From the NCBI GenBank assembly GCA_019637675.1, contig JAHBVE010000001.1, positions 496,001-560,000 of the forward strand: a stretch of DNA of 64,000 bases, given 5' to 3'. Below are positions 43,075 through 62,147 of the stretch, piece after piece; the first letter of the stretch is position 1, and each line of letters opens with the position of its first letter. This stretch comes from Anaerolineales bacterium. GTDB taxonomy: Bacteria; Chloroflexota; Anaerolineae; Anaerolineales; UBA11579. Under the pieces are notes generated by a model. The model did no database searches. It was not told where the DNA came from and saw only the letters and a program-made list of their open reading frames with translations. The translations under genes were made by a program, and so were the position numbers.

Positions 43075-45612
43075 CTACTCGTATGCGGGTTGGTTCTCAA
43101 ACACCCGTCCATCGTATTCTTTGCGGCTGAGCACCGTGTCGTACAAGCCCACATCTTCGCCTTCATGCTTGTTGATGCCGGTGTACTCCAGGCTGGCGTC
43201 TTCATAACGTTTGAACTTATAAATAGCGTCGTTCATCAGGGCGCTGTTGAAGACACCCAGGCTTACCAATAGTTCAAAATCCTTTACTTCCAACCCGGTT
43301 ACTTTCCTGAAGAGGCCGGGCTCCAACTGGGTGATCACGTCTTTCAGGGCACGCTCGCGGTAATCTGTCAGGTACATAAAGACTGGGATGCGCGTGGCAA
43401 ACTTGATGAGCTTCTCTTGAATCTGTTTGCGCTTGCTTTTGTACTCCTTCTCAGCTTCGGTCATTTCCCGTTTTTGCTTTTCAGTTAAGTCCTTGTCTTT
43501 GGCCTGGCGCTTGAGCTTTTGTACGCCCTCAGATTTATTGATGATGGTTTCAATATCCTGGTTCAGACTGCGAAAGCCCTCGATACTCATCAGGGCCTGC
43601 ATGGCCTTGGGGTTGCTCATTAGCCGCGATAGTGTGCCGTTGTCTACGTTTACCAACAGCGCACTCTCCCAGCGGCGGGCCAGCAACGTGGCGGTGGTGC
43701 CGCTCATTGCCATCTCCAGCACGCCGGCGGCGTCCACCTGCTTCATGGAGCTACCGTCATAAGCCAGGATGGGCAGAAAGCTGATGAATTCTTCAACTTT
43801 CTTTTCCAGGTTGCTTTCGTTGACATTGAGGCGATTGCTGTACTCCGCGATCTGGCGCAGCGCCCGCTCCGGTGCAAAGTCAAAGATGTAGCACTCTTCC
43901 TTGAGGATTTGCTCTTCGCCAGGCTTGTCTGGCACTGGCACTGTCCAGGGAGATTGCACGCGGAAGGCGGCCTGGAAATAAGTCTCCGGGCTGGAAGAGT
44001 TGCGCAGCATCAGGATGCCTGTCCAGGGCTTGACCGTGACGCCGGTTGTAAGCTTGCCGCAGGAGAGGGTGATGGTTTTGGTCTTGAGCGGGTCGGGATC
44101 ATCCATGGCGTCGTAGACCGGCCCCAAGGCTTCCACACCCATACCAGCCTCATTGCCGGCGGCCACCACTACTTTGTAATCCCGGTAAAAGCTGTTTTGC
44201 TTCTGCAGCAGCAGGTTGCGCATGGCGTGGCAGGCGGCTACGCTGGGCAGGAACCAGAAGGTGTGCGAGAGCACATTCAGAAGGCGCACATCAGAGAAGG
44301 GCATGGGTGGCTTCTGCGCGCCCAACTTCAAGTCATCCACCGTGGTTTCCATCAGGCCGCCGCGGATCAAGTCGAGCCATTTTTGTACTTCGTTTGGATA
44401 CACAAATTTAGCTTTGGCGTCGCGGCCACTGGCTGCGAAGAAGGCGTTGAGATCAAATTCGTTGAATTCGCCCTGCTGGGCAATCTCCCGAATGGCATCC
44501 GGCAGGCGGTAGGTGAGCAACACGATGCGCGGCAAGGCACCGTAAGGATTGTGCCCAGGGCTTTTCCAGCCTGCTTTGGCGCGCTGCTCATCTGAGTAGG
44601 TCCAGTTATAGATTTGCTCTTCAATGAATTCGCCGGTGGTGATGGCGCGGAATGGTGTGCCCGAGAGATACAGATAGGCGCCGGTGGTAACGGGCATGAT
44701 CTGCTCAAATTCGTCCACCGTGTCTTCGCTCTGCTGTAAGCTCTCTACCTGCTGTTCGTATTCGTACTCGTCTTCGCCCTCGAACAGCCCCTTGGCGCGC
44801 TCACGCCAGGCGCCGAAGTGGTATTCGTCGAGGATGACACAATCCCAGGGGATGGTGTGCACCCATTCGTTCTTGGGTTTGATGCCACCTGTGCTGCGGT
44901 CTCGCCCCAGGTAATCCTGAAAAGAGCCGAAGCATACGAAGGGCTTCTTCTTGTCGGCATCTTCGTAGCGCAAGCCATTGCGGGAGATGAACTGCCAGCC
45001 CTTGAAATCTACATGAGCGGTGAGGTCTTCCTCCCAGGCGCTCTGCACGGCAGGCTTGAAAGTGAGCACCAGTACGCGCTTCCAGCCCATTCGTTTTGCC
45101 AGCTGGTAAGCGGCAAAGGTTTTGCCGAAGCGCATTTTGGCGTTCCACAGAAAGTGGGGGGTCTTGCCGGGGTTCTGCTTGGAGTAACTTTTGAAGTACG
45201 CTGCGGCGCGTGCCACGGCTTCTTCCTGCTCTGGGCGCATGCCGAAATCCAGCGTGCGGTTTTCTTCGTTGCTCTCGCCGCTGCGAAGCGCGACCAGGGC
45301 GGCGGCCACATCCTTGACCGTGCAGCGGAACCACTCGCCCTCAGGGTTCTTGATGCCTTTGCTCTTCAAGTAGCGGTGCACATCCCGATCAGAGAAGGCC
45401 ATGCCATCAGCGCGCATGGCGCTCTCGTCCAGGAGGATGCGATACGTCTGCTCCGGGCGTACGATCGGATATTGCTGCGCCACGCGCTCTTGCACGTTGC
45501 CCGTGGTGTAGCCAACCTTGAGCAAACCCTTGAAGTCTGGATGGGTTTCCTCGTAGGCATAGATGCGCGGGTTGCCCGCTGGCCGCGGCGGGAAGAAATC
45601 TTTAGTTGGCAT
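43075..45612 (-). CDS. GIY-YIG nuclease-helicase fusion of a restriction-modification-like system
   Basis: An 845-residue protein. The N-terminal domain (about 15-100) looks like a T5orf172/MUG113 GIY-YIG nuclease: RIYAYEETHPDFKGLLKVGYTTGNVQERVAQQYP and VHRYLKSKGIKNPEGEWFRC. A superfamily 2 helicase follows, with Walker A-like WNAKMRFGKTFAA (157-168), DEYH (262-265), YLYLSGTPFRA and a C-terminal helicase segment (LTTGVTVKPWTGILMLRNSSSPETYFQAAFRVQSPW). It starts inside the end of the methylase gene (11-base ATG...TAA overlap). It is probably the DNA-cutting and translocating subunit. Confidence 0.85.
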   Translation of the reverse strand: MPTKDFFPPRPAGNPRIYAYEETHPDFKGLLKVGYTTGNVQERVAQQYPIVRPEQTYRILLDESAMRADGMAFSDRDVHRYLKSKGIKNPEGEWFRCTVKDVAAALVALRSGESNEENRTLDFGMRPEQEEAVARAAAYFKSYSKQNPGKTPHFLWNAKMRFGKTFAAYQLAKRMGWKRVLVLTFKPAVQSAWEEDLTAHVDFKGWQFISRNGLRYEDADKKKPFVCFGSFQDYLGRDRSTGGIKPKNEWVHTIPWDCVILDEYHFGAWRERAKGLFEGEDEYEYEQQVESLQQSEDTVDEFEQIMPVTTGAYLYLSGTPFRAITTGEFIEEQIYNWTYSDEQRAKAGWKSPGHNPYGALPRIVLLTYRLPDAIREIAQQGEFNEFDLNAFFAASGRDAKAKFVYPNEVQKWLDLIRGGLMETTVDDLKLGAQKPPMPFSDVRLLNVLSHTFWFLPSVAACHAMRNLLLQKQNSFYRDYKVVVAAGNEAGMGVEALGPVYDAMDDPDPLKTKTITLSCGKLTTGVTVKPWTGILMLRNSSSPETYFQAAFRVQSPWTVPVPDKPGEEQILKEECYIFDFAPERALRQIAEYSNRLNVNESNLEKKVEEFISFLPILAYDGSSMKQVDAAGVLEMAMSGTTATLLARRWESALLVNVDNGTLSRLMSNPKAMQALMSIEGFRSLNQDIETIINKSEGVQKLKRQAKDKDLTEKQKREMTEAEKEYKSKRKQIQEKLIKFATRIPVFMYLTDYRERALKDVITQLEPGLFRKVTGLEVKDFELLVSLGVFNSALMNDAIYKFKRYEDASLEYTGINKHEGEDVGLYDTVLSRKEYDGRVFENQPAYE

Positions 45613-47107
45613 TCTTTTTGTCAATTTCTCGGACAATCGACTCAATGAATATGATTTCTTCTTTAGACAGGCCAAAGATGCTGTATAGTTTGGCGTCTGT
45701 CCATCTTTCTGTCATTGGTAAACGCGGGACAAAAGCGAAGCGATCCTTGGTTACGTGCTGGGTGTTCTTTCGTAGACCAACAAGGAAACGAAGGAATCTG
45801 GTTTCTAAAAAGGCTGCAAGATTCCTCGCGTGCGTTTCCTTGTCATAAGCACCAACAACCAGATAGGTTTCTGTACACGCGCTTGGTGGAGGGGCAACTA
45901 TTGGTTTCCCCAAAATCATGCGAGGATAACCTCTTGCTTCTCCACCCTCTCCATAACCTCCGGATGTAAGAACCTTCCATTTGTCAATAAGGTCTATACC
46001 GCTGGTGATTTCTGACTTAGAAATCTTTCCTATTACTTTGTTTGCATACAATGTAATGGTTCCCTTGCCTGAGGGACGAACAAAAGTGCGCAATCCAAAG
46101 GGTTTTTGTGCAAAAATCTGTTCACTTAGTGATGAATAATTCTTTGAATTTACTTTCTCTAAAATCGAAATCGCTTTATTGAAACGTACAAATGTGTCAA
46201 ACTGGTTTAAGGGTCGTTTCGCACTATCAGAAAAATCGTTCATATGTGTTGTTACCTGGCAATCGCCAATATAATCGCGTTCCCAGAGGAAGTAACAAAC
46301 ACCTCCGATGACCTTTACTCCAGGGAAAACATCTGAGGCAATTGGAAAATCAACTAATGTAGATACTCTTTTGTCGTTAAGCATCGTTGCGCGAAATTCG
46401 CCCAGATTCTTGCCACCCGCAAACCAGCGCGAGGGAATAATCATGGTCAAGTATCTTGGTGTCAACTTCATGGCTTGCTCAACAAAGGTGTGATAAATCG
46501 GTGAAGAGCCTGTGCTTTCTCCTGCATCACTTAGCTGATATGGCGGATTTCCAATGATTACATCAAATTTCATGTTGAAAATCTCCTCGGGCTTGAGGGT
46601 GTGTATAAATTGATAAGCATGCGTCTCTAGCTCTTCGCCGCGAGCGTATCCTTCTTCGCTTGCTCCGCAGTATGTGCAGCGGCCGTTTTGCCAGCTGTGC
46701 TCTATACGCTCATAGCGGATATTGCCCTGCTCGTCTGCAAAACCGTCAGCCACGGAGTACTTACCGTCGGCATACTTGGAGCAATACAAACTGCGGCGGC
46801 TCATCAGCGCGGTAAGTTCAGTGACCGGGATACCAAAGAGCTGTTTGGTGAAAATGTGGTTAAGACGCGCCTGGCGATCGGGGATCTGTTGCTCCAGGCC
46901 TGCGTCCAGCCGTTTGGCCGCCTCGCGCAAAAACACCCCGGTCTTGCAGGCCGGGTCCAGAAAAGTGGCGTTCTTGTCCTGCCAGATCTCGGCCGGCAGC
47001 AAATCCAACATCTGGTTGGCCAGCTGGGGCGGGGTGAAGACTTCGTCGTTGCTCAGGTTGGCCAGGCAGCTGAGCACATCCGGGTTGAAGGTTGCGTTAG
47101 ACAGCAT
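45602..47107 (-). CDS. N6-adenine DNA methyltransferase (Eco57I-like)
   Basis: A 501-residue gamma-class methyltransferase. Motif I is FLDPACKTGVFLREA (49-63) and the catalytic motif IV is VIIGNPPYQLSD (183-194). Between them is a possible zinc site (CTYCGASEEG). The C-terminal half (about 230-500) resembles target-recognition regions, with QNTQHVTKDRFAFVPRLP near the end. The DNA is visibly more AT-rich than the neighbours, which suggests horizontal acquisition. It overlaps its upstream and downstream partners by 11 bases each. Confidence 0.88.
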   Translation of the reverse strand: MLSNATFNPDVLSCLANLSNDEVFTPPQLANQMLDLLPAEIWQDKNATFLDPACKTGVFLREAAKRLDAGLEQQIPDRQARLNHIFTKQLFGIPVTELTALMSRRSLYCSKYADGKYSVADGFADEQGNIRYERIEHSWQNGRCTYCGASEEGYARGEELETHAYQFIHTLKPEEIFNMKFDVIIGNPPYQLSDAGESTGSSPIYHTFVEQAMKLTPRYLTMIIPSRWFAGGKNLGEFRATMLNDKRVSTLVDFPIASDVFPGVKVIGGVCYFLWERDYIGDCQVTTHMNDFSDSAKRPLNQFDTFVRFNKAISILEKVNSKNYSSLSEQIFAQKPFGLRTFVRPSGKGTITLYANKVIGKISKSEITSGIDLIDKWKVLTSGGYGEGGEARGYPRMILGKPIVAPPPSACTETYLVVGAYDKETHARNLAAFLETRFLRFLVGLRKNTQHVTKDRFAFVPRLPMTERWTDAKLYSIFGLSKEEIIFIESIVREIDKKNAN

Positions 47108-47750
47108 CGGCCACCTTTAGAAAGTGCACCAACGGGTACTCCCGCACAGGCAGGGGGATGAACACCTCTTCGCCCAAATCAGAGAACAGCGGCAATTCCT
47201 GCATGCTGGCCTGGCTGATGAGCTCTTTGAATGAGAAATCTCGCCGCTTCAGGTGGCCGTTGATGGCCGACCACTCCGGGAAGATAATGGGTTGTGGGTC
47301 GTCGCCCACAGTTTTTAGGGTCAGGGCATCTCCCCACACAATATTGCAGGACAGGATGAAACGCACCGTGCGACGAAAGTCGTCTTTGGTCTCGTTATTG
47401 TAGAGCGCCGAATACTCGCGATCAACGATGCCGAACAGGCGCTCTCGGCAGGCTTCTACATTGTCTTGAAGGATGTCGATACCGTATACAGAGGAGATGG
47501 CCAGGACCGCATAACGTTCGTAGGCTAGCTGACTGTTGGCGTAATCTCGCTTCACCACGCGGAGCTTGCGTTCCAGTACCTCGGCGAGAAAGTTGCCTGT
47601 GCCGCAAGCTGGCTCCAGGAAGCGCGAGTCGATGCGTTCGGTCTCCTGCTTGACCAAATCCAGCATGGCGTTGACCTCGCGCGGGTTGGTGAACACCTCG
47701 CCGTGGTCTACGACACGCTGTTTGGAGGTAACTTGCTTGCTTGTACCCAT
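47097..47750 (-). CDS. Second, partial-type DNA methyltransferase subunit
   Basis: A 217-residue protein with a clear SAM-binding motif (RFLEPACGTGNFLAEVL, 43-59) preceded by HGEVFTNPREVNAMLDLV, and a YAVLAISSVYGIDILQDNVEACRERL segment as in N6-adenine methylases. It has no NPPY catalytic motif; the chain ends after a region containing CNIVWGDALTLKT. It may be an accessory subunit of the following methylase, or one half of a split gene. Same operon, overlapping by 11 bases. Start ATG 47750. Confidence 0.8.
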   Translation of the reverse strand: MGTSKQVTSKQRVVDHGEVFTNPREVNAMLDLVKQETERIDSRFLEPACGTGNFLAEVLERKLRVVKRDYANSQLAYERYAVLAISSVYGIDILQDNVEACRERLFGIVDREYSALYNNETKDDFRRTVRFILSCNIVWGDALTLKTVGDDPQPIIFPEWSAINGHLKRRDFSFKELISQASMQELPLFSDLGEEVFIPLPVREYPLVHFLKVADAV

Positions 47751-48420: not shown

Positions 48421-49983
48421 ATGCTTGTAAGTACAGACCCCATCGACTGGCAAAACTTCTCCATCGAAGACGCAGATCTCGAGTTTCTGTCCGCATACCT
48501 ATTGGAGCAAGAGACTCCGCTTGGGCCGGAAGCGCTGGCGATGCAGTTGATCGTCAACCGCATCACCAACCCGCGCCCGCAGCCCAAGGACGGCGAGAGC
48601 GAGAAGGCCTACCTGCCCAAAGAGACCTACGCCGTGGGCGATAAGGTCTATTTCCCCGCCCTGAAGAACATCGGCGGGCGGGTGAGCGCTGTGCGCCCGG
48701 CGGCTGTCATCGGCGGCGACGGTTTCGACGTCATCAGCGTCGCCATGGAAGACGGCGGCACGCGTGAGTTCGCCGCCCGGCTGGCCCAGCATTTGCTCAA
48801 CGATCCGCCCAAGCAGGAAGCCTCGCAGGTGGACGCCGCCGCCGAGGCCAAGCAGCACGCCAAGGACATTGCGCCCACGCTGGTCGAGGCGTTGCAGGCC
48901 AGCCCAGAGTTTGTGTACATCGCCGGCCGCTGGTTCCCCAAAGCCCTGATTGTTGATGTAGACCCCGGCCAGCTCAACGTGGCCGAAGCCATTTTGGATA
49001 TGGCCGGCGGCGGCCCGCTGCCCACCAGCCAACTGCTCGGGGAGGTGGAGCTGCCCGACGGCGTGAATCCGAAATTGGCCGAGTTCTCGCTCGACCTGGC
49101 CCTGCAGCACGACGACCGCTTCGATGAGGTCGGCTCGACCGGCGAAGTGGCCTGGTTCCTGCGCCGCCTGGAGCCGGATGCGGTGCAGAAGACCCCCATC
49201 TACCTGCGCTACACGCCGGTTGGCTTCGACCCCAGCCCGCTCACCGAAGATATGCGTGACCTCGTGCGCACGCTCGACGATGAGCTCTCCTTCCATAGTT
49301 TGCTCGACGACAACGCTCCCGAAGTGGCCGACGTGGCCCTCATCTTCCCGCATTGGCGGGCCGGCAGCTTGCCACTCACGCCCAAGATGGCCAAGCTGTT
49401 CCCGAGTGCCATCGAGTCGCCACGCGTGCGCTTCACGTTTGTGGACGAGAAGAGCGGCGAGACCTTCCCCGGCTGGGTGGTGCGCCAGCAGCGCTATATC
49501 TACGGCCTGCGTGAGTGGCTGGTGAAGCAAGGCCTGATGCCCGGCAGCGTGGTGCGTTTGCGCCGCGGGGATGAGCCCGGCCAGATCGTCGTGTCCAGCG
49601 ATGCCCACCGCTCCAGCAAGGAATGGGTGCGCACGGCGCTGGTGGGGGCGGATGGCGGCGTGGTGTACGCCACGCTGAAGCAGCAGGTCAACGGCGCGTT
49701 CGATGAGCGCATGATGATCCATTTGCCGGGCGAGCTGGCGCCGATCGACGCCATTTGGGAGAAGCGCACCAACCAGCCGGCGGGCTTGGAAAGCATCGTG
49801 GCCCAGACCCTGCAAGAGCTGGCCAAGCTGAGCCTGCAAGGCAATGTGCATGCCGCCGAGGTGTATTCGGCCGTGAACCTGACCCTGCGCTGCCCGCCCG
49901 GGCGCATCCTGGCGCTGCTGGCCGGCGACCCGCGCTTTGAGCATGTGGGCCACCTGCACTTTCGCATTGCGGAGGGCGCATGA
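48421..49983 (+). CDS. Conserved protein with HARE-like winged-helix segments, unknown function
   Basis: A 520-residue soluble protein. Three stretches resemble HARE/RpoE-delta-type winged helices: residues 15-50 (DADLEFLSAYLLEQETPLGPEALAMQLI), about 200-260 (LPTSQLLGEVELPDGVNPKLAEFSLDLALQHDDRFDEVGSTGEVAWFLRRL) and the C-terminus (VHAAEVYSAVNLTLRCPPGRILALLAGDPRFEHVGHLHFRI). Between them are beta-rich parts. This layout suggests a nucleic-acid-associated protein, but no enzyme motif is visible. It overlaps the next gene by 4 bases (ATGA). Confidence 0.6.
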   Translation: MLVSTDPIDWQNFSIEDADLEFLSAYLLEQETPLGPEALAMQLIVNRITNPRPQPKDGESEKAYLPKETYAVGDKVYFPALKNIGGRVSAVRPAAVIGGDGFDVISVAMEDGGTREFAARLAQHLLNDPPKQEASQVDAAAEAKQHAKDIAPTLVEALQASPEFVYIAGRWFPKALIVDVDPGQLNVAEAILDMAGGGPLPTSQLLGEVELPDGVNPKLAEFSLDLALQHDDRFDEVGSTGEVAWFLRRLEPDAVQKTPIYLRYTPVGFDPSPLTEDMRDLVRTLDDELSFHSLLDDNAPEVADVALIFPHWRAGSLPLTPKMAKLFPSAIESPRVRFTFVDEKSGETFPGWVVRQQRYIYGLREWLVKQGLMPGSVVRLRRGDEPGQIVVSSDAHRSSKEWVRTALVGADGGVVYATLKQQVNGAFDERMMIHLPGELAPIDAIWEKRTNQPAGLESIVAQTLQELAKLSLQGNVHAAEVYSAVNLTLRCPPGRILALLAGDPRFEHVGHLHFRIAEGA

Positions 49984-50396
49984 GCCTGATCAAGCCGATG
50001 GCCGATACGCCGTTCCAGATTGACTTTGACTGGTGGCGTGAGAACGACCGTGAGTGGCGCGTCTACCTGCGCGGCCTATTGGGCAGCGAGCAGGAGGCCG
50101 CCCTGGCCGACATCAGCGGCGAGGAGCAGGTGGATTGGGTGGACCCGGCCACCGGCGAAGTGAGCCGCGTCAACATTTTGCAATTCCTGCTGATGGGCCA
50201 CTACGCCCGCCAGGGTACTGAGGATGGCGTATCCCTTGTCGAGAGCATCTTCCGCGCCTTCCTCATGAATGGCAACCAGCCGCTCAGCTCTGAGGAGTTG
50301 GGGGAATTGCTGGGCCGGCCGGCGCAGACGATCTTGCGCACCATCTCGGGCGCGCGGGTCTACCGCGGCATCCGCCCGGTGCTGCCGGCTGAATAG
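49980..50396 (+). CDS. Conserved protein of unknown function, partner of the preceding gene
   Basis: A 138-residue protein. IDFDWWRENDREWRVYLRGLLGSEQEAAL forms the N-terminal helical part, and ESIFRAFLMNGNQPLSSEELGELLGRPAQTILRTISGARVYRGIRPV looks like a winged helix with a recognition helix. Start ATG overlaps the previous stop (ATGA), so the two proteins are made together and may work as a DNA-binding pair. Confidence 0.6.
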   Translation: MSLIKPMADTPFQIDFDWWRENDREWRVYLRGLLGSEQEAALADISGEEQVDWVDPATGEVSRVNILQFLLMGHYARQGTEDGVSLVESIFRAFLMNGNQPLSSEELGELLGRPAQTILRTISGARVYRGIRPVLPAE

Positions 50397-51292: not shown

Positions 51293-51336
51293 CAGAACTG
51301 AAAGTTAGAGAGCAGGGGCAGCGACCTGCGTTGTGG

Positions 51337-51342
51337 TATAGT
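51337..51342 (+). promoter_or_regulatory. Putative -10 box of the ubiquitin-like operon
   Basis: TATAGT, 33 bases before ATG 51376. Overlaps the palindrome at 51342-51352 by one base. No convincing -35. Confidence 0.4.
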
Positions 51343-51352
51343 GGTCTGACCA
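51342..51352. promoter_or_regulatory. GntR/FadR-type operator candidate
   Basis: TGGTCTGACCA is a perfect palindrome around a central base and fits the TNGTNNNACNA pattern bound by FadR-group GntR regulators. It sits just downstream of the -10 box and 23 bases before the gene that encodes a GntR-type DNA-binding domain fused to E1, which suggests autoregulation. Confidence 0.5.
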
Positions 51353-51375
51353 ACAAACCACGACAGGCCGCCCAC

Positions 51376-52998
51376 ATGCCCAATTCCATCCCGCGCAAAT
51401 CCGTCCCCGAGCTTGTCGCCGGCCGCCTGGCCGCCGGCATGCTGAATGGCCAGTACCCGGCCGGCAGCCAGCTGCCGGCCGAGCGTGACCTCATCAAAGA
51501 GCTCGGCGTGGGGCGCTCTTCGCTGCGCGAGGCGCTCAAGATCCTCTCCGAGGCTGGCCTGCTCGACGCCCAGCAGGGCGTGGGCTGGTTCGTCAATGAG
51601 CTCGGCTCGGCCCGCATGCTGAAGGCGCGCCAACTGGCGGCCGAGGTTGCGCCGCCCGCGCCGGCGAAGAAGCCGGGCAAGAAGGCCAAGGCGGCCGGCG
51701 GCCCCAAGCGGCTGCCGGTGGCCAAAGAGAAGCCGCTGCATATCCCCAATCTCAAGTCTGATCGGCTGGGGACTTTCGAGTTCATCAGTTGGTGGGAGCG
51801 CGAGAAGGTGCGCGAGGCCCGCGTGATGGTGGTGGGGGCGGGGGCGCTCGGCAACGAGGTCATCAAGAACCTGACTCTGATGGGCATTGGAAATCTCTAC
51901 ATCGTGGATTTTGACAAAGTGGAAGCGGCCAACCTGAGCCGCTCGATTCTGTTCCGCGAGAAGGACCGCGGCCGTGAGAAGGCCCAGTTGGCTGCGGCGC
52001 GTGCGGTCGAGATCAATCCGGATGTGCGCGTGCAATACCTGCACGGCGATGTGACCACCGATATTGGGTTGGGCGTGTTCCGCCGCATGGACGTCATCAT
52101 CGGCTGCCTCGACAACCGCGAGGCGCGGTTGGCGGTCAATCGCTTCGCCCATTGGATGAACAAGCCCTGGGTGGACGGCGCCATCCAGGAGCTGCTCGGC
52201 CTGGCGCGCGTCTTTGTGCCGGGCGAGGGTGCCTGCTTTGAATGCACGCTGACCGAGCAGGCCCGTCGCGATCTCGCGATGCGCTACTCGTGCCCGCTGC
52301 TGGCCCGCCAGAACATCCTGCTCGGCAAGGTGCCCACAACGCCGACGATCGCATCCATCATTGGCGCCATGCAATCGCAGGAGGCGCTCAAGCTGATCCA
52401 CAACCTGCCGGTGGAGCCGGGCAAGGTGCTGCACTACAACGGCTACACCAACTTCATGCACACCACCGCCTACGTGGCCGATGCGGAGTGCGAGAGCCAC
52501 TGGATCTACGGCGATGTGACCGAACTGCCGCTGCGCGCTGAGGCCAATACGCTGGCCGAGCTGCTGGAGATCGCTCGCGGCGACCTGGGGTCGGATGCGG
52601 TGCTGGAGCTCGACCAGGAGCTGGTGCTCTCGCTCAACTGCGCCGCCTGCAACACGGTGGAGCATGTGCTCAAGCCGCTCTCGGACGTCAGCTTCGAAGC
52701 CGGGCACTGCCCCAGTTGCGGCGAGATGCGCGAGGTCAATTTGACCCATACCATCACCGGCAACGAAGACTTCCTGGAGCGCAGTCTGGCCAGCGTGGGC
52801 GTGCCCCCGCTGCACATTCTGCGCGCTACAAATGGCGCCGAATTTCGTTTCTATGAATTGAGCGGCGATCTGCCCACCGCGCTGCACTTCAATGATTTCG
52901 ATGAGGCCGTGCCCGGCCTGCACGCCCCCCGCGTGCGCCTGGGTGATGCGGTGCAGAGCGAGACGCAGGGCAGCGGCCGAGTGCACCTGATCGACTAA
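51376..52998 (+). CDS. E1-like ubiquitin-activating enzyme with N-terminal GntR domain
   Basis: A 540-residue fusion. Residues 5-75 are a GntR winged helix (ELVAGRLAAGMLNGQYPAGSQLPAERDLIKELGVGRSSLREALKILSEAGLLDAQQGVGWFV). A basic linker (97-120) leads to a ThiF/E1 adenylation domain: VMVVGAGALGN (150-160), NLSRSILF with Arg189, GREKAQ with Lys202 and GCLDNREAR with Asp246. CxxC pairs at 287/290 and 422/425 plus 445/448 suggest zinc sites. Cys306 in RYSCPLL is the candidate thioester residue. The C-terminal 85 residues may be a ubiquitin-fold domain that meets E2. Start MPNSIPRKS is chosen; the frame extends 15 codons upstream into the promoter. Confidence 0.9.
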   Translation: MPNSIPRKSVPELVAGRLAAGMLNGQYPAGSQLPAERDLIKELGVGRSSLREALKILSEAGLLDAQQGVGWFVNELGSARMLKARQLAAEVAPPAPAKKPGKKAKAAGGPKRLPVAKEKPLHIPNLKSDRLGTFEFISWWEREKVREARVMVVGAGALGNEVIKNLTLMGIGNLYIVDFDKVEAANLSRSILFREKDRGREKAQLAAARAVEINPDVRVQYLHGDVTTDIGLGVFRRMDVIIGCLDNREARLAVNRFAHWMNKPWVDGAIQELLGLARVFVPGEGACFECTLTEQARRDLAMRYSCPLLARQNILLGKVPTTPTIASIIGAMQSQEALKLIHNLPVEPGKVLHYNGYTNFMHTTAYVADAECESHWIYGDVTELPLRAEANTLAELLEIARGDLGSDAVLELDQELVLSLNCAACNTVEHVLKPLSDVSFEAGHCPSCGEMREVNLTHTITGNEDFLERSLASVGVPPLHILRATNGAEFRFYELSGDLPTALHFNDFDEAVPGLHAPRVRLGDAVQSETQGSGRVHLID

Positions 52999-53001
52999 GC
53001 C

Positions 53002-53838
53002 ATGACACATGCGGTAGCGATGAGACGATTTTTATTGGGAGACGAAAGCAGGTTCGTGGAGAGCGCACTTGGGCGCATAACCCTGTGCGTGCTTTTCGCT
53101 ACCCTGGTGGGCCTGGGGCTGACCCTGCTGTTCGTGCTGCTCACCAACTTCTCGCCGTTCCTGCTCAAGTTCGTCGTCATCATCGGCATCGGCCTGGCGG
53201 CCAGCTTCATGAGCCGCCGCGTGCTGGCCGCCCGCAGCCCTGCGCTGCGAGCGGCCACGGCCGCATTCGCCAGCGTTATCGCGCTGGCGGTGCTCAGCCC
53301 GCTGACCCTGGGCTTCGTCGGCCTCAATCTGCTGCGCAGCTATGCGATCGCGACGCCGGTCGACGCGGCCATTCAGCTGCTGGTCGCCGGGCTGGCGGTG
53401 GCCGCCGGCCAGGCCGCCTGGGCGCCGAGCCGCCGCACCGTGATGGTGGAGCCGCGCGATGTTGCGGACGTGACCGAAGTATCCGTGCCCGCACCGCCGG
53501 CGGCCCGCGTGCGTACGACTGCGCCGCGCAGCAGTTCGCCGGCCGCCAGTGCCCCTTCATTGCTGGCACGGGCGCGGGCTGGTATTTCGCGTTTTTTCAC
53601 CCCCACACCCGCTACGCGCAAGTTGCGCTCGGCGCGGCCGGCCCGCAAGCAGGCCGCCCGCGGCAGCGGCATCACGCTTAGCGCGCAGGAGCGGCATGTG
53701 TGCCCGTACTGCCTGGAGCCGGTCACCAAGCGTGACCGGCGCGGCGTAAAGATCTGCAAGGTATGCAAGACCTGGCACCACGCTGATTGCTGGGAGATCA
53801 CGGGCGTGTGCCAGGTGCCGCACGCGTTCAAGAATTGA
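53002..53838 (+). CDS. Membrane protein with C-terminal RING-like zinc domain (E3 candidate)
   Basis: A 278-residue protein. The N-terminal half has about four membrane helices (ITLCVLFATLVGLGLTLLFVLL ... LLVAGLAVAAGQAAW). A basic, disordered cytoplasmic linker follows. The last 50 residues form a RING-like treble clef: C234-x2-C237, C252-x2-C255, H259/H260, C263, C270 and H274 (VCPYCLEPV ... ICKVCKTWHHADCWEITGVC). Prokaryotic RING-type domains of this pattern occur with E1/E2/JAB genes and are proposed E3 ligases. It begins 3 bases after the E1 stop. Confidence 0.85.
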   Translation: MTHAVAMRRFLLGDESRFVESALGRITLCVLFATLVGLGLTLLFVLLTNFSPFLLKFVVIIGIGLAASFMSRRVLAARSPALRAATAAFASVIALAVLSPLTLGFVGLNLLRSYAIATPVDAAIQLLVAGLAVAAGQAAWAPSRRTVMVEPRDVADVTEVSVPAPPAARVRTTAPRSSSPAASAPSLLARARAGISRFFTPTPATRKLRSARPARKQAARGSGITLSAQERHVCPYCLEPVTKRDRRGVKICKVCKTWHHADCWEITGVCQVPHAFKN

Positions 53839-53855
53839 GTTGAGGAGAGCATTGT

Positions 53856-54701
53856 ATGGCTGACATCGAGGTAACCATCATCCTGCCCAACGGCGGCGCT
53901 CGCAAAGCTGAGCTGCCGGATGATGTCCCTGTGCGTGAATTGGTGGTCGAGCTGGCCTCGCTGCTGGCGCTGCCCACCGTAGGGCCAGACGGGCGCCCGA
54001 TGGGCTACCGTCTGGACAGCAAGGCCCTGGGCCGCGAGCTGAAAGAGGATGAGACCCTGGAAGCCGCCGAGGTGCCGGCGGAGGATCGCCTGATCCTCAC
54101 CGCGGATATCACCGCCGGCGCGGTGACGCTGGGCGAAAGCCCGCGCATGCGCCGCCTCAAGGCGGATCTGCAGCGCATGCAGGAGCTGGCCGCGCAGAGC
54201 GACCTGATCGAATTCAAAGCCGTTTCGGCCAACCCCAAAATGCCGCCGGAGACCTACATCGTCACCTACAAGTGCAAAGGCGTCATCGCCGTCAATCACA
54301 AAGGCGAACCCTTGCTGGGCGACAAGCACCAGGTCGAGATCTACCTGCATAACCAGTACCCGCAGCGCTGGCCAGGCATGAAGTGGCTGACACCGGTGTG
54401 GCATCCCAACATCAACCACTTGAACGGCACGGTGTGCGTGGATGCGGCCTGGTGGACCGCCAGCCGCTCGCTCGACCGCCTGGTCATCATGATCGGTGAG
54501 ATGGTGCAGTACAAGAATTTTCATGATGACCCCACCAAGCCGCCGTTCCCGTGGGATGCCGAGGCAGCCCGCTGGAGCCGTGGCTACCGCAAGAAGCATC
54601 CCAACTTTTTCCCCGTGGATACCCGTGAGCTGCTGCGCCCCGAGCGTGTGCATGTAAAGAAGACGCCGGAGAGGCAGAAGCCGCGGATCAAACTGAAGTG
54701 A
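53856..54701 (+). CDS. Ubiquitin-like domain fused to E2 conjugating enzyme
   Basis: A 281-residue protein. Residues 1-88 are a YukD-type ubiquitin-like domain (VTIILPNGGARKAELPDDVPVRELVVELAS ... LEAAEVPAEDRLILTADITAG). Residues 93-240 are a UBC/E2 domain with YKCKGVIAV ... VEIYLHNQYPQRWPGMKWLTPVWHPNINHLNGTVCVD; the catalytic Cys is Cys194, following the HPN motif (183-185). The C-terminus ends in KPRIKLK, also found at the end of the VWA protein in this operon. GAGGAG precedes the ATG. It would take the free Ubl from E1 and attach it to targets with the RING protein. Confidence 0.9.
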   Translation: MADIEVTIILPNGGARKAELPDDVPVRELVVELASLLALPTVGPDGRPMGYRLDSKALGRELKEDETLEAAEVPAEDRLILTADITAGAVTLGESPRMRRLKADLQRMQELAAQSDLIEFKAVSANPKMPPETYIVTYKCKGVIAVNHKGEPLLGDKHQVEIYLHNQYPQRWPGMKWLTPVWHPNINHLNGTVCVDAAWWTASRSLDRLVIMIGEMVQYKNFHDDPTKPPFPWDAEAARWSRGYRKKHPNFFPVDTRELLRPERVHVKKTPERQKPRIKLK

Positions 54702-54733
54702 TCCAAATTGCGAAACGCAAAGGAGACTGAACC

Positions 54734-55000
54734 ATGGCAGACATTCCTGTAACCGTAGTTCTACCGTCTGGGGGTAGCCGCACCGCTGAGGTGCCCAACG
54801 ATGTGGAAGTGAAGGACTTGATCCCTGAGCTGGCCACTACGCTGGAGCTGCCCACCACCGGGCCGGACGGCCGCCCGATGGGGTATCGCCTGGACAGCAA
54901 GGCCCTGGGCCGCGAGCTGAAAGAGGACGAGACCCTGGAAGCCGCCGGCGTGCCGGCGGACGACCGCCTGATCATCACCGCAGACGTCACTGCGGGCTAG
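54734..55000 (+). CDS. Free ubiquitin-like protein (YukD-type modifier)
   Basis: An 88-residue beta-grasp protein (VTVVLPSGGSRTAEVPNDVEVKDLIPELATTLEL ... DDRLIITADVTAG), nearly the same as the Ubl part of the E2 fusion over residues 42-88, but ending exactly at TAG-stop with a C-terminal Ala-Gly. No processing tail is needed for exposure of the terminal Gly. It is the likely conjugated modifier. GGAG lies before the ATG, and a strong hairpin follows the stop codon. Confidence 0.88.
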   Translation: MADIPVTVVLPSGGSRTAEVPNDVEVKDLIPELATTLELPTTGPDGRPMGYRLDSKALGRELKEDETLEAAGVPADDRLIITADVTAG

Positions 55001-55010
55001 TGCCGTTACA

Positions 55011-55042
55011 GGCTGCCCTGTGCACACGTGCACAGGGCAGCC
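55011..55042 (+). promoter_or_regulatory. 14-bp hairpin between the Ubl and JAMM genes
   Basis: A perfect stem GGCTGCCCTGTGCA with loop CACG, 10 bases after the Ubl stop and 12 before the next ATG. No T-run, so it is not a simple terminator. It may protect the 3' end of a Ubl mRNA or lower downstream expression. Confidence 0.6.
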
Positions 55043-55054
55043 ACGGCAACGCGT

Positions 55055-55936
55055 ATGAGCACAACCACCTCCGCATCCTCCAGGAAGCCGCAGGGCTTGC
55101 AGAATCCGCTGGCCGGACCGCGCCGCGCCCGCCTGCCGCTGGGCCGCGCCCAGCGCTGGCTGGCGGCGGGCGAGGACGGCACCCAGCCGGCGCTGCCGGT
55201 CTTCTTCACGCAGAGCGTGCTGAAGACCATCAAGCTGCATGCCGCCAGCGACATGGATAACGAAGTGGGCGGCTGGCTGGCCGGGCGCTGGTGCCGGGAT
55301 GCACAGGCCGGCACGGAGTTCGTGGTGGTGGAGGCGCTGCTGCCGGCGCAGCAAGTGCGCTCGGGCAGCACCTTCCTCACCTTCACGCACGACAGCCAGG
55401 TGGCGATGCTCTCGGCGCTCGAAGAGCAGTACGAGAACAAGTGCGTGGTGGGTTGGTATCACACCCATCCGCGCATGGGCATTTTTCTTTCCGGCTATGA
55501 CACCTGGCTGCACGAGCACTTCTTCCCGCAGCCCTGGCAGATCGCCCTGGTGGTGGAGCCGCATTCGCGGCAGGGCGGTTTGTTCGTGCGCAAAGATGGC
55601 GAGCTCTCGCCGCGCCGTTACAGCGGCTTCTATGAGCTGCACTCCAGCAGCATGGACAGCGTGGTGGATTGGACCAACTTGCGCGCTGAACCGCGCCCTG
55701 TCCCTGCGCAGGCTGAGACCACCGCGGCCCCTCCGCCGCCAGTGGCCGCCAAGCCTGCGGAACCCAAATCCGCGGCCGCCGTGCCGCCGACCGACGATGG
55801 CGCAACGCGGCCTATCGAGGTGAAGCGCGTGATCGCTAAGCCCACCGCGCAGCCGCCGCAGAGCGAGCCCAAGCCACCGTCGCCGGCCGCGCCCGCGCAG
55901 CCTGAGCAAGATCCCCAAACGGAGAACAAACCATGA
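55055..55936 (+). CDS. JAB/MPN (JAMM) metallopeptidase, deubiquitinase-like
   Basis: A 293-residue protein. The zinc motif is complete: Glu70 (DNEVGGWLAG), His136-x-His138 (WYHTHPRMG), Ser146 and Asp149 (FLSGYD), in the canonical HxH-x7-S-x2-D spacing. JAMM enzymes remove ubiquitin-like modifiers. A Pro/Ala/Glu-rich tail (about 220-293) follows. ATG 55055 (MSTTTSASSRKPQG) is chosen, because the longer frame begins inside the hairpin. The stop overlaps the FHA gene (ATGA). Confidence 0.9.
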   Translation: MSTTTSASSRKPQGLQNPLAGPRRARLPLGRAQRWLAAGEDGTQPALPVFFTQSVLKTIKLHAASDMDNEVGGWLAGRWCRDAQAGTEFVVVEALLPAQQVRSGSTFLTFTHDSQVAMLSALEEQYENKCVVGWYHTHPRMGIFLSGYDTWLHEHFFPQPWQIALVVEPHSRQGGLFVRKDGELSPRRYSGFYELHSSSMDSVVDWTNLRAEPRPVPAQAETTAAPPPPVAAKPAEPKSAAAVPPTDDGATRPIEVKRVIAKPTAQPPQSEPKPPSPAAPAQPEQDPQTENKP

Positions 55937-56790
55937 ACCGGATGACACGTTTGTATTACTACACCCTGCTGGGGGCCATCGGCGGTTTGATCGGCTGGCA
56001 GGCCAGCAATGTGCTCGGCCTGTCGTTCACGCAGAACGTCTACCTGAGCGAAGTCGTGGTGGGCGGGCTGATCGGCTTTTGCATCGGCGGCCTGATCGGC
56101 ATGAGCGAAGGCGCCGCGCTGCGCAGCCCGGCCTATGCGGCTCGGGCCGGCCTGACCAACGGCCTGTTCGGCGCGGTGGGCGGCGCCATCGGCCTGCCGC
56201 TGGCCGAAGCCGCCTTCCAGACCCTGGGCGGCGAAGGTTGGACGCGGGCGCTGGGCTGGGCCGTGTTCGGCGGCTTCATCGGCGCCGGGCTGGGCTTCAG
56301 CAGCGGCGCGCAGATGTGGAAGCCGGCCCTGGGCGGCCTGCTGGGCGGCGCCGTCGGCGGCGCCTTGCTGGAGCTGGCCCGCGAACGCCTGGCGGATGCG
56401 CTGATCGGCAAGGCCATTGGCCTGGGCCTGCTGGGCGCGGCCATCGGGGCGCTGATCGCCCTGGTGGTGTTGCTGCTCTCACGGGCCTGGCTCGAAGTCG
56501 TGAGCGGCAAGCTCAAAGGCACGGAGTTCGTGCTGGATAAGTTCATCCACGCCAACGGGCCGACGGCCTACGTGGGCAGCAGCGCCCTCAAAGCAGACAT
56601 CGTGCTGCCCGACCCGGATATTGACCCGCAGCACGCCATGCTGAGCGGCGGCGACACCCACATGAACATTCGTGACATGAGCCAGAAGGGCACCTTCATC
56701 AACGGGCGCAAGGTGGAGCAGGCTCGCTTGCTGGATGAGCAGGCCATCCGGGTTGGCAATACGCAACTTGTCTATCACGAGAAGAGGTAA
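55933..56790 (+). CDS. Membrane protein with C-terminal FHA domain
   Basis: A 285-residue protein. Residues 1-185 are six or more Gly/Ala-rich membrane helices with GG-repeat spacing (GGLIGFCIGGLIGMSEGAALRSP). Residues 195-285 are an FHA domain: YVGSS, PQHAML and KGTFINGRKV are the family's phosphothreonine-binding motifs. It would place a phospho-Thr reader at the membrane. It is embedded between the JAMM gene (4-base overlap) and the VWA gene (2-base gap), so it is part of the same operon. Confidence 0.88.
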   Translation: MNRMTRLYYYTLLGAIGGLIGWQASNVLGLSFTQNVYLSEVVVGGLIGFCIGGLIGMSEGAALRSPAYAARAGLTNGLFGAVGGAIGLPLAEAAFQTLGGEGWTRALGWAVFGGFIGAGLGFSSGAQMWKPALGGLLGGAVGGALLELARERLADALIGKAIGLGLLGAAIGALIALVVLLLSRAWLEVVSGKLKGTEFVLDKFIHANGPTAYVGSSALKADIVLPDPDIDPQHAMLSGGDTHMNIRDMSQKGTFINGRKVEQARLLDEQAIRVGNTQLVYHEKR

Positions 56791-56792
56791 GC

Positions 56793-57953
56793 ATGCACAC
56801 ACTCACTCGTTTAACGCTTGGCATCATCCTGGCGCTCAACCTGCTGTCCGGCCTGGCCTTTGCGCCGCTGGCGCAGGAGGAGGGCGTGCAGGTTCGTATC
56901 ACCCAGGTGGATACTTCGCAGTTCCCGCGGGTCACCTTCTTCGTCTCCGTGACCGACGCGCAGGGCAATCCCTACCCGGTCGACCCGAGCCGCCTGGTCA
57001 TCATGGAGAACGGCCAGCCCATCGCGCTCGACCAGATCGAAGGCTTTGGCGGAGTGGAAGCCCTGACCACCATGCTAGTGATGGACGTTTCCGGCAGCAT
57101 GAATCCGGGTGGCAAGCTCGACTCGGCCAAGGCAGCCGCACACCAGTTCGTGGAGCGTATGCGCTCGCAAGACCAGACCGGCCTGATCGCCTTCAATACC
57201 CAGGTGTACACCGTGCAGAGCTTGACCTCAGACCAGGCTGCCCTGCATAGCGCCATCGACAGCCTGCAGGCCGAGGACGATACGGCCATGTTCAATGCGC
57301 TGATGGCCGCCCTGGACGCGCTGGAAGGCGTGGAGGGGCGCAAGGCCATCATCGTGCTGACCGATGGCCTGGATAACTCCAGCCAGTGGGCCGCGCCGGA
57401 TGTGGTGGCGCGTGTGCAGAGTGAAGGCGCGTCCATCTCCACCGTAGGGCTGGGCACGCCGGGCGGCGACCGCATGAGCGGTATAGACCAGCCCGGCTTG
57501 CAGGATCTGGCCGGGCAGGCGGGCGGCCAATATGGCTACGCCGAGGACGAGGAGAGCCTGACCCAGCTATACACGCAGTACTCGCGCGCATTGCAGAGCG
57601 AATACCAGCTCAGCTACATCTCACCCGCCGCGCTGCGTGACGGCGTCAACCGCTCGCTGAGCGTGAGTCTGGCGCCTGCCGGGGCTGTTTCCGAAGGAAG
57701 CAGCCCTGAGGCCGAAGGCCCAGCGGCCGAAGGCCGCTACAATCCCGGCGGGCTGGTGCCCGAGGTCGAGCAGCCGGCCGCCTGGCCGCAGTTCGCCGCC
57801 ATCGTTGGCGTGCTGGCCCTGCTGGTAGCCCTGCCGCTGATCGTGGGCGGCCTGCGCCAGGACGGCGCTACCAACCCCAAGGCCAAAGCGGCCGGGCCAG
57901 ACCCGCGCCGCAAGCCGCCGGGCAAGCGGCCGCGCATCAAGCTGAAGGACTAG
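56793..57953 (+). CDS. Membrane-anchored von Willebrand factor A domain protein
   Basis: A 386-residue protein with signal peptide (LTLGIILALNLLSGLAFAPLAQ), a beta-rich start and a VWA domain with intact MIDAS (MDVSGSMN, Asp98-x-Ser100-x-Ser102; later TDGLDNSS). A C-terminal membrane helix (about 337-356) leaves a basic cytoplasmic tail ending in KRPRIKLKD. The same end is seen in the Ubl-E2 protein, from different codons. It is the last gene of the ubiquitin-like operon. Most of it lies outside the membrane and probably binds another protein. Confidence 0.9.
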   Translation: MHTLTRLTLGIILALNLLSGLAFAPLAQEEGVQVRITQVDTSQFPRVTFFVSVTDAQGNPYPVDPSRLVIMENGQPIALDQIEGFGGVEALTTMLVMDVSGSMNPGGKLDSAKAAAHQFVERMRSQDQTGLIAFNTQVYTVQSLTSDQAALHSAIDSLQAEDDTAMFNALMAALDALEGVEGRKAIIVLTDGLDNSSQWAAPDVVARVQSEGASISTVGLGTPGGDRMSGIDQPGLQDLAGQAGGQYGYAEDEESLTQLYTQYSRALQSEYQLSYISPAALRDGVNRSLSVSLAPAGAVSEGSSPEAEGPAAEGRYNPGGLVPEVEQPAAWPQFAAIVGVLALLVALPLIVGGLRQDGATNPKAKAAGPDPRRKPPGKRPRIKLKD

Positions 57954-57969
57954 CTGATCTTGAAACCTA

Positions 57970-57999
57970 CCAAAGCAGCCGCGCAAGCGGCTGCTTTGG
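57970..57999 (+). terminator. Terminator of the ubiquitin-like operon
   Basis: A perfect 13-bp stem CCAAAGCAGCCGC/GCGGCTGCTTTGG with loop GCAA, 17 bases after the VWA stop. The T-run is weak (TGTTGTGG). Confidence 0.7.
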
Positions 58000-58101
58000 T
58001 GTTGTGGGCAAGTTTTGCCCCGGTTGAAGGGTAAAATATGAACACAGGTCAGCGTCTATATTGCATATTGAGTTGACTTGACGTATTTGGATAGGAGAAT
58101 G

Positions 58102-58623
58102 ATGGAACGCAACGGTTTATTGCAACTGGCAGGGCAGGACGTCACCATTGTAGGCCCCGATATTACGGTGGGCCAGCAGGCGCCCGAATTTTCACTGCGC
58201 GCCAATGATTGGTCGGTGGTGGATGTACTCAAGGCCACTGAAGGCAAGGTGTGTATTATTGCCGCAGTCCCCTCGCTGAACACCAGCGTGTGTGACGCCG
58301 AGGCCAAGCGCTTCAATGAAGAAGCCGCCTCGCTCGACCCTGATATTGCAATTGTTACCGTGAGCACCGACCTGCCGTACGCGCTCAACAACTGGTGCGC
58401 CGCCAACGGCGTCGACCGCGTCACAACGTATTCTGACGCTTACGACACCAATTTTGGCCAGTCTTACGGAGCCTTGATCAAGGAACGCCGTATCCTGCGC
58501 CGCGCCGTGTTCGTTGTTGACCGCTCGGGCAAGGTGACCTACGCGGATTACATGAAAGCCCTGGGTGACCAGCCGGACTATGCTGCCGTGCTGGAAGCCG
58601 CCAAAGCCGCACTGGCTTCTTAA
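58102..58623 (+). CDS. tpx: Thiol peroxidase
   Basis: A 173-residue peroxiredoxin of the Tpx type (the N-terminus NGLLQLAGQDVTIVGPDITVGQQAPEFSL is characteristic). The peroxidatic Cys is in PSLNTSVCDAEAKRFNEEA. A resolving Cys is in LNNWCAANG. It reduces hydroperoxides with thioredoxin. AGGAG lies 4 bases before ATG 58102; ATG 58099 is too close. It lies between the ubiquitin-like operon and the hsp20-lon pair, in the same direction. Confidence 0.93.
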   Translation: MERNGLLQLAGQDVTIVGPDITVGQQAPEFSLRANDWSVVDVLKATEGKVCIIAAVPSLNTSVCDAEAKRFNEEAASLDPDIAIVTVSTDLPYALNNWCAANGVDRVTTYSDAYDTNFGQSYGALIKERRILRRAVFVVDRSGKVTYADYMKALGDQPDYAAVLEAAKAALAS

Positions 58624-58683
58624 GCAGTGCGCGGCTGGGCCGCGGCGTACGGTTGGGTGCCTGACAGCGCTCCATCGCATTAC

Positions 58684-59087
58684 ATGCACGAAAACGAATT
58701 GGACAATCTAGTGGCTCGCTCCGCCTGGGGTAACCCCCAGGAGGTGCGCTTCCGCCTGACGACGATCTCACGCCAGTGGGCGGCCCGGCCGCACCTGTGG
58801 CGCCCGCCCACCGACCTGCTCGAGACCGAGCAGGCCTATGTGGTACGCGTGGAAGTGGCCGGCATGCAGGAGGCCGAGCTCAACATTGCCATCGAGGGGC
58901 GCGAGATGGCGATCTACGGCCTGCGCCAACAGCCCGCCGAGCAGGCCGCTTATTACCAAATGGAAGTGCGCTTCGGAGAGTTCCTCAGCGCCTTGCAACT
59001 GCCGGGTGAGATCAACACCGATGGCATTCAAGCTGTATATCAAGATGGATTTTTGACCGTGACGTTACCGAAAGTGAGAGCATCCTA

Positions 59088-59088
<1 letters not shown>
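58684..59088 (+). CDS. Small heat shock protein, Hsp20 family
   Basis: A 134-residue protein with an alpha-crystallin domain ([45 protein letters not shown] ... [37 protein letters not shown]). It keeps unfolded proteins from aggregating. The start may be GTG 58627 (153 residues) or ATG 58684. The stop overlaps the lon start by one base (TAATG), so chaperone and protease are co-expressed. Confidence 0.88.
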
Positions 59089-61784
<2,696 letters not shown>

Positions 61785-61787
61785 CGT

Positions 61788-62147
61788 ATGGCCAAGACCA
61801 TTCTGGTGCTGGAAGATGAAGAGATGCTGTACCAACTGGTGCACGATCTCTTGAGCATTGAGGGCTACAAGGTTAACCGCCTGACCGACTTTGCCCGGCT
61901 GGCCGAGGAGCTGCGCAGCAACCCGGCCGATGCGATCGTGGCGGATGTGAACCTGCGCGGCGCCAACGGCATCGAGCTGGTGGAGGGGCTGCGCTCCCAG
62001 CCCGGCTTCAACGATGTGTACGTGCTGCTGACCTCGGGCATTGATTACCGCCAGGAGGCGCTGCAGCGCGGCGCGAATGATTTTTTGCAAAAACCCTATA
62101 TGCCAGATGAACTGGTGAGTTTATTGGCCCAACGCCTGGCTGCATAG
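61788..62147 (+). CDS. Single-domain response regulator
   Basis: A 119-residue receiver domain: acidic pair in LVLEDEEML, phospho-acceptor Asp in AIVADVNLRG, Thr in LLTSG and Lys in FLQKPYMP. No output domain. It starts 3 bases after the lon stop, so it is likely co-transcribed. Its target is unknown. Confidence 0.9.
   Translation: MAKTILVLEDEEMLYQLVHDLLSIEGYKVNRLTDFARLAEELRSNPADAIVADVNLRGANGIELVEGLRSQPGFNDVYVLLTSGIDYRQEALQRGANDFLQKPYMPDELVSLLAQRLAA

Follow-up and report, generated by a model that had tools for sequence, protein, structure and literature searches.

A seven-gene operon for ubiquitin-like conjugation

We analysed a 64,000-nucleotide stretch of the genome of an Anaerolineales bacterium (assembly GCA_019637675.1, contig JAHBVE010000001.1, positions 496,001 to 560,000; hereafter, the window), and in it an operon that, judging from its sequence, very probably encodes a ubiquitin-like conjugation pathway. 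On balance, we favour the view that this is a self-regulated, membrane-linked pathway of Anaerolineae. Its E1 activating enzyme is fused to a DNA-binding domain of the GntR family, a palindromic operator lies at the E1 promoter and a basic C-terminal tail is common to several of the encoded proteins. What is read directly from the DNA comprises the genes, their conserved order and intact catalytic residues, the fusion of GntR to E1, the operator, the fact that operator and fusion occur together, and the tail.

Seven open reading frames were confirmed at 51376-57953, all on one strand and overlapping or separated by short gaps, as an earlier sequence-only reading of the window had described them. 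In order, they encode E1, a membrane RING protein, a fusion of a ubiquitin-like protein (Ubl) to an E2 conjugating enzyme, a free Ubl, a JAMM protease, an FHA protein and a VWA protein. These genes, the elements within them and the evidence used (AF2, AlphaFold2; HTH, helix-turn-helix; TM, transmembrane) are as follows:

51376..52998, + strand: E1 activating enzyme, 540 aa (Pfam, PDB profile matches, conservation)
51415-51594, + strand: GntR/FadR-type HTH of E1 (Pfam GntR)
51778-52473, + strand: ThiF adenylation domain of E1 (Pfam ThiF)
52639-52719, + strand: zinc ribbon of E1
52975-52995, + strand: E1 tail, GRVHLID
53002..53838, + strand: four-TM membrane protein with a C-terminal Prok-RING_1 zinc finger (53692-53823), candidate E3 (Pfam, AF2, conservation)
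53856..54701, + strand: Ubl-E2 fusion (Pfam YukD and UQ_con, AF2/Foldseek, PDB profiles, conservation)
53856-54119, + strand: fused Ubl with an internal invariant TAG
54435-54437, + strand: codon of E2 Cys194, after HPN
54681-54698, + strand: E2 tail, PRIKLK
54734..55000, + strand: free Ubl, 88 aa, ending in TADVTAG-stop with an exposed C-terminal Gly (Pfam YukD, 6.5e-12)
55055..55936, + strand: JAMM metalloprotease, predicted deconjugase or processing protease (Pfam JAB 4e-8, Prok-JAB 1.4e-7; motif at 55460-55501)
55933..56790, + strand: membrane protein with a Gly-rich hydrophobic region and a C-terminal FHA/YscD-like domain (56494-56772) (Pfam)
56793..57953, + strand: VWA protein with a signal peptide, a VWA domain, a TM helix (about residues 328-357) and the basic tail RPRIKLKD (57930-57950) (Pfam VWA_2 5e-20, hydropathy)

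For gene order, we compared the best 80 named loci, which all belong to Chloroflexota, chiefly Anaerolineales, and include those of the cultured Leptolinea tardivitalis, Leptolinea sp. HRD-7 and Pelolinea submarina. The order E1, RING, Ubl-E2, Ubl, (second JAMM), JAMM, FHA, VWA was kept in nearly all loci that were long enough (named Anaerolineae, Chloroflexota), so that the sequence-only reading, which had staked itself on this order being conserved, stood. Its central claim, a complete E1/E2/RING/Ubl/JAMM pathway that has membrane partners, finds good support in the protein families and folds and in the conservation of catalytic residues and gene order. The E2 is carried by 28/298 sampled genomes of the class and by 14/400 of the phylum. 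One group of loci, hereafter the split clade (L046-L054), has E1, Ubl, E2, JAMM and RING-like genes adjoining one another, and its E1 lacks the N-terminal extension.

The E1 enzyme carries a GntR head and an operator lies at its promoter

The ThiF domain of E1 was matched by Pfam at 7e-54, and residues 14-73 form a GntR HTH (PF00392, 1.6e-16). Structural profiles agreed on both parts: UBA7, UBA1, UBA5 and MoeB were the PDB matches of the protein, and the closest matches for residues 7-80 were FadR/GntR-type chains. No FCD effector domain was found in E1 by the Pfam search of the operon proteins, and ThiF stands in its place. The GAGALG motif, the Arg of NLSR and the nucleotide motifs are conserved across relatives, in agreement with the sequence-only reading, which had recognised an activating enzyme with intact GAGALG and Arg and had overlooked both the N-terminal GntR domain and the operator. 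Cys306, in the crossover loop, is conserved in the main and the split clade and is a candidate catalytic Cys.

The palindromic operator TGGTATnnTGGTCTGACCAnnATACCA was found at the E1 promoter, around the start site. Its elements are:

51334..51360, no strand: composite palindromic operator TGGTAT-N2-TGGTCTGACCA-N2-A(T/A)ACCA (genome pattern search, aligned promoters)
51342-51352, no strand: operator core TGGTCTGACCA, which starts 34 bp ahead of the E1 start

The operator overlaps a -10-like TATAGT (51337-51342), and the copy of the core at 51342-51352 is the single occurrence of TGGTCWGACCA in the 2.25-Mb genome. The strict core was present at the matching place ahead of 57/71 E1 genes with a GntR domain, against 0/10 of those without. 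When the promoters were aligned, a larger dyad appeared (TGGTAT-N2-TGGTCTGACCA-N2-ATACCA), and this 27-bp form was detected with at most 6 mismatches in 67/70 E1 promoters and in 0/379 background windows. In 44 of 65 promoters, it lies directly downstream of a sigma-70-like -35/-10 pair (TTGAC/TATAAT-like). Locus L045 has neither the GntR domain nor the operator; the E1 tree places it with the GntR-bearing side, albeit as a long branch.

A TGGTnnnACCA-type palindrome at the regulated promoter is the operator rule of GntR regulators of the FadR/PdhR/LldR type, and such a palindrome is what we found here. We consider it highly likely, from these sequence patterns, that GntR-E1 regulates its own operon through the predicted operator. 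Since the operator sits over the start site and after the -35/-10 elements, a repressor position is suggested, and E1 would then bind the palindrome as a dimer through its GntR head and repress the operon. Two points weigh against this: 3/70 promoters, L122 and L040 among them, have no good 27-bp operator (7-8 mismatches), and the direction of control is read from position alone. A DNA-binding domain on E1 could also localise the enzyme, and some GntR proteins are activators; yet we hold it very improbable that the head, instead of autorepressing, serves to bring the conjugation enzymes to DNA-bound proteins or to activate transcription, since the core site is single in the genome and at its own promoter, with no dispersed set of targets, and a site over the start suits a repressor.

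What the E1 repressor would respond to is more tentative. BirA, an ATP-dependent enzyme that forms an adenylate, has a winged HTH and controls the operon of its own pathway. GntR-E1 resembles it as an adenylate-forming enzyme with an HTH that would control its own operon, although the enzyme and HTH families differ and the effector (Ubl-AMP or thioester) is only proposed here. By this analogy, operon expression may depend on whether E1 is free or loaded as Ubl-adenylate or thioester, much as biotinyl-AMP sets it for BirA, a possibility that we hold to be rather less than even. Compared with the FadR/PdhR/LldR-type regulators, the HTH and the palindrome are alike, and the C-terminal effector domain is replaced by ThiF/E1.

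The Ubl, E2, RING and JAMM proteins

Both parts of the Ubl-E2 fusion were recognised by Pfam (UQ_con 6e-11, YukD 2e-10). The sequence-only reading had proposed structure prediction as a check on the E2 fold; the AF2 model (mean predicted local distance difference test, pLDDT, of 77) matched ubiquitin/SUMO and E2 structures in Foldseek, the Ubl having a ubiquitin fold with a Z of about 11, and a PDB E2 profile matched at 3e-9. Cys194 after HPN, noted in that reading, is indeed present, and both HPN and Cys194 are invariant in relatives. E1 would adenylate the free Ubl at its exposed C-terminal Gly and then hand it on to Cys194 of E2. The TAG terminus of the free Ubl is kept in 77/78 relatives with the fusion and in 8/9 split-clade members. 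The detection of Ala-Gly remnants by mass spectrometry, proposed earlier, would fail with trypsin, because the last basic residue sits 11 residues before the Ubl C-terminus (...DDR|LIITADVTAG).

TAG is also invariant inside the fused Ubl, which suggests that the fused Ubl is either cut by JAMM or used as an internal module. We rejected the idea that the internal TAG stems solely from the two Ubls evolving in concert, as free and fused Ubls are distinct paralogues: identity between free and fused copies of the same genome (0.71) is lower than that among fused (0.75) or among free (0.78) copies. In the window, the second halves of the two copies (53856-54119 and 54734-54997) have a stretch with 88-100% DNA identity, as against 50-79% in the first halves, and local gene conversion between them is possible. 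At L045:9569-10428, Ubl and E2 are separate overlapping genes. The Ubl ends in TAGRQL and would therefore have to be processed, and a separate free Ubl was not found.

The second gene encodes the candidate E3. Its AF2 model places TM helices within residues 22-139 and gives the RING region a pLDDT of 91-95. Prok-RING_1 scored under the Pfam cut-off in the window protein (21.4 against 29.1 bits), and it was matched by 57/57 aligned relatives, at best with 6e-12. The zinc-domain residues C234, C237, C252, C255, H259, H260, C263, C270 and H274 are invariant. The model of this domain overlays RING and PHD structures over 44-50 residues. What speaks against a RING fold is that Z was only 4-5 and that Foldseek with the RING model gave no E below 0.001, a weak fold match. 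We assign the domain to the RING type from Pfam, residue spacing and the confidence of the model, and the four-TM protein would promote Ubl transfer to lysines near the membrane.

For the JAMM protein, the start is probably the ATG at 55055 rather than the alternative GTG at 55028. Its motif HTHPRMGIFLSGYD (HxH-x7-S-x2-D; HTHP...S..D) and an upstream Glu are conserved in relatives, and thus the motif reported as intact by the sequence-only reading was borne out. The enzyme would remove Ubl from conjugates and may also cut the Ubl off Ubl-E2 after the invariant TAG.

The last two proteins had been described as being of a membrane sensor type. Their place as membrane partners stands, whereas a phospho-sensor role for the FHA protein is unsupported. 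Pfam matched its domain both to FHA (1e-9) and to Yop-YscD_cpl (7e-12). In 68/68 sequences, Ser replaces the Arg of the GR loop that binds phosphothreonine, and the Ser of SxxH is lost in 62/68. Without this Arg and Ser, the domain is more likely a structural, YscD-like one. The VWA protein has an intact MIDAS (DVSGS..T..TDG).

A basic C-terminal tail is shared by E2 and the VWA protein

Several operon proteins have a common C-terminal tail, which the sequence-only reading had passed over. E2 ends in KPRIKLK and the VWA protein in RPRIKLKD. We scored tails with a matrix built from the E2 tails, taking the 99% background quantile as the threshold. Tails above it were found in E2 (81/82), the VWA protein (58/68), the second JAMM of relatives (4/7) and E1 (20/79), and further E1 proteins carry a variant of their own (GRVKLRD-like); the RING, Ubl and FHA proteins gave 0 and the short JAMM 1/76. 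In the whole genome, the tail pattern matched the E2 and VWA ends, the end of a Dpp-type permease and frames that are not gene ends, and these further PRIKLK-like tails were set aside as chance or unrelated matches. With these set aside, the tail marks operon proteins alone in this genome, which suggests that they share a docking site. By hydropathy, the VWA tail comes after the TM helix and is cytoplasmic by the positive-inside rule.

We propose that the PRIKLK tail, carried by E2 and by the VWA protein at its cytoplasmic end, and often by E1 and the second JAMM of relatives as well, would let these proteins dock on a common partner, for which the acidic Ubl is the simplest candidate. The net charge of Ubl is about -7 to -9, and that of the last 25 residues of E2 and VWA about +7; in the split clade, there are no basic tails and Ubl is near-neutral. 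The chance that the tail is a docking motif is, in our estimate, slightly short of even, and that Ubl is its partner is put forward with modest confidence. Weighing against docking on Ubl, the E1 tail is looser than those of E2 and VWA, the charge argument comes from two clades only, and the AF2 model of Ubl-E2 gives a strand only at tail residues 279-280, with modest confidence. In the split clade, the E2 tail is acidic-hydrophobic (EEDDLGINIL), which recalls SUMO-interacting motifs, and replaces the basic PRIKLK.

The tail could instead be a lysine acceptor (auto-conjugation) or a membrane or nucleic-acid contact. It is lysine-rich and basic, and the E2 of Caldiarchaeum is auto-ubiquitylated on a C-terminal lysine (PMC5654768). 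However, the alternating Ile/Val and Leu, needless for accepting a tag, are as conserved as the basic residues, and Arg or His replaces Lys in several tails; we regard this explanation as unlikely, and docking is the one we retain.

From the observations above we infer the biochemistry, the sign of regulation, the effector, the partner of the tail and the substrates. Taken as one model, E1 would be a repressor that senses modifier supply by its own adenylate or thioester state, and the common tail would tie E1, E2, JAMM and the transmembrane VWA protein to one docking site; in this full form, it is a tentative proposal.

Chromosomal context and possible roles

The operon occupies a different place in different clades. 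In one, it lies between ribosomal-protein genes and lexA, in another beside Tpx-Hsp20-Lon, and the E1 tree gives each chromosomal context one origin only (lexA, ribosomal protein and Tpx are names that we read off the sequences rather than took from a family search). Plasmids and phages were rejected as carriers, since the operon did not turn up in the collections of them that were searched. Because of this stable clade-wise placement and its absence from those collections, the operon looks like a chromosomal resident that has been lost many times, not like a mobile defence module.

One possible role is that of a degradation tag, the conjugates being handed to an AAA+ protease such as FtsH or Lon. 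In the window and its close relatives, the operon has the genes for Lon and Hsp20 directly downstream of it, the RING protein is membrane-bound and several AAA+ proteins are present. Against this, the Lon neighbourhood is limited to one small clade, and no 20S proteasome or HslV was found in the host genome (93% complete), with one weakly scoring match in 25 related genomes; a proteasome link was rejected for want of a 20S proteasome in the host, and we think a degradation tag in general quite unlikely.

Still less probable is an anti-phage system of the Bil/Bub/CBASS-E1E2 type. The known bacterial E1-E2-JAB operons of the Bil, Bub and CBASS types act in defence or are putative immune systems, and they include transcriptional regulators of their own (PMC13373217, PMC10097602), and the PADLOC models E1-E2 and JAB match E1 and JAMM. 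These matches are only domain-level (E1-E2, JAB and, for the ThiF part, BilD), the other operon proteins are unmatched and no Bil model matches Ubl, E2 or JAMM. Moreover, the operon holds no cyclase or other effector gene, and it keeps one place per clade outside plasmids and phages, as described above.

A type VII secretion role, which YukD might bring to mind, was rejected, as no WXG100 (PF06013) match was found in the genome.

Around the operon, a 13-bp hairpin with a weak T run follows the last gene (57970..57999, + strand, from reading the sequence) and is a possible operon terminator, which the terminator scan did not flag. Beyond it (58078-62147), the window and close relatives have genes for a thiol peroxidase-like protein, Hsp20, Lon and a response regulator, possibly a stress or proteostasis neighbourhood. 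Upstream, two genes (48421-50396; 520 and 138 aa) without a Pfam match above the cut-off are conserved only in the close relatives of the window, and further up (43075-47750), adjacent genes resemble type IIG/II restriction-modification pieces (PADLOC); a defence-island reading of the latter was rejected, as they are missing from the loci of near relatives. Elsewhere in the same genome (G000:C1:583088-585475), a second ThiF gene lies beside a Prok-JAB gene, and this pair is probably a sulfur-carrier type system separate from the operon.

Relation to known systems and meaning

Bacterial Prok-RING_1/YukD-type Ubl operons have reportedly been predicted by Burroughs, Iyer and Aravind from comparative genomics, and the sequence-only reading was right that the class had been foreseen. 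The window operon is of the same class, with a YukD-like Ubl, E1, E2, a membrane Prok-RING_1 protein and JAB. Complete bacterial operons of this kind are also mentioned in work on Caldiarchaeum subterraneum (PMC5654768), whose operon (E1, E2, the RING protein srfp, Ub, Rpn11/JAMM) has the same five enzymatic parts at one locus. In vitro, the Caldiarchaeum cascade of E1, E2, RING and JAMM is functional, and linear Ub fusions are among the substrates that its JAMM cleaves (PMC5654768). Of the structures that matched the window Ubl, Caldiarchaeum ubiquitin is one of those most identical to it in sequence (26%), but it ends in GG with a propeptide, whereas the free Ubl of the window ends directly in TAG. 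Unlike in Caldiarchaeum, E1 here bears GntR, E2 is fused to a second Ubl, RING is part of a four-TM protein, and the operon further includes FHA and VWA partners and the shared tail. The Bub, Bil and type II CBASS operons have E1, E2 and JAB parts in common with the window and transcriptional regulators of their own (PMC13373217). Those regulators are separate genes (CapW, CapH+CapP, CapK+CapS), whereas here the regulator would be E1 itself; in addition, a RING protein is present here and no effector is seen in the operon.

In the literature searched, which did not cover the Burroughs/Aravind RING paper, we found no report of the GntR-E1 fusion, of the operator or of the shared tail, nor of a direct feedback loop from Ubl charging to expression in one polypeptide. 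The conjugation class is known or predicted; the self-regulating E1 and the shared tail look new. Ubiquitin-like pathways that include RING ligases have been predicted in bacteria. GntR-E1 and its dedicated operator offer a control circuit that can be tested in the cultured Pelolinea submarina and Leptolinea tardivitalis and, if true, it would be an unusually simple case of an E1 enzyme regulating its own pathway. With the shared tail comes the prediction of a docking interface, and the VWA membrane protein would be part of the same machine. That the operon keeps its chromosomal place and that no proteasome was found in the host point to a regulated use of ubiquitin-like tags in bacteria that is not proteasomal.

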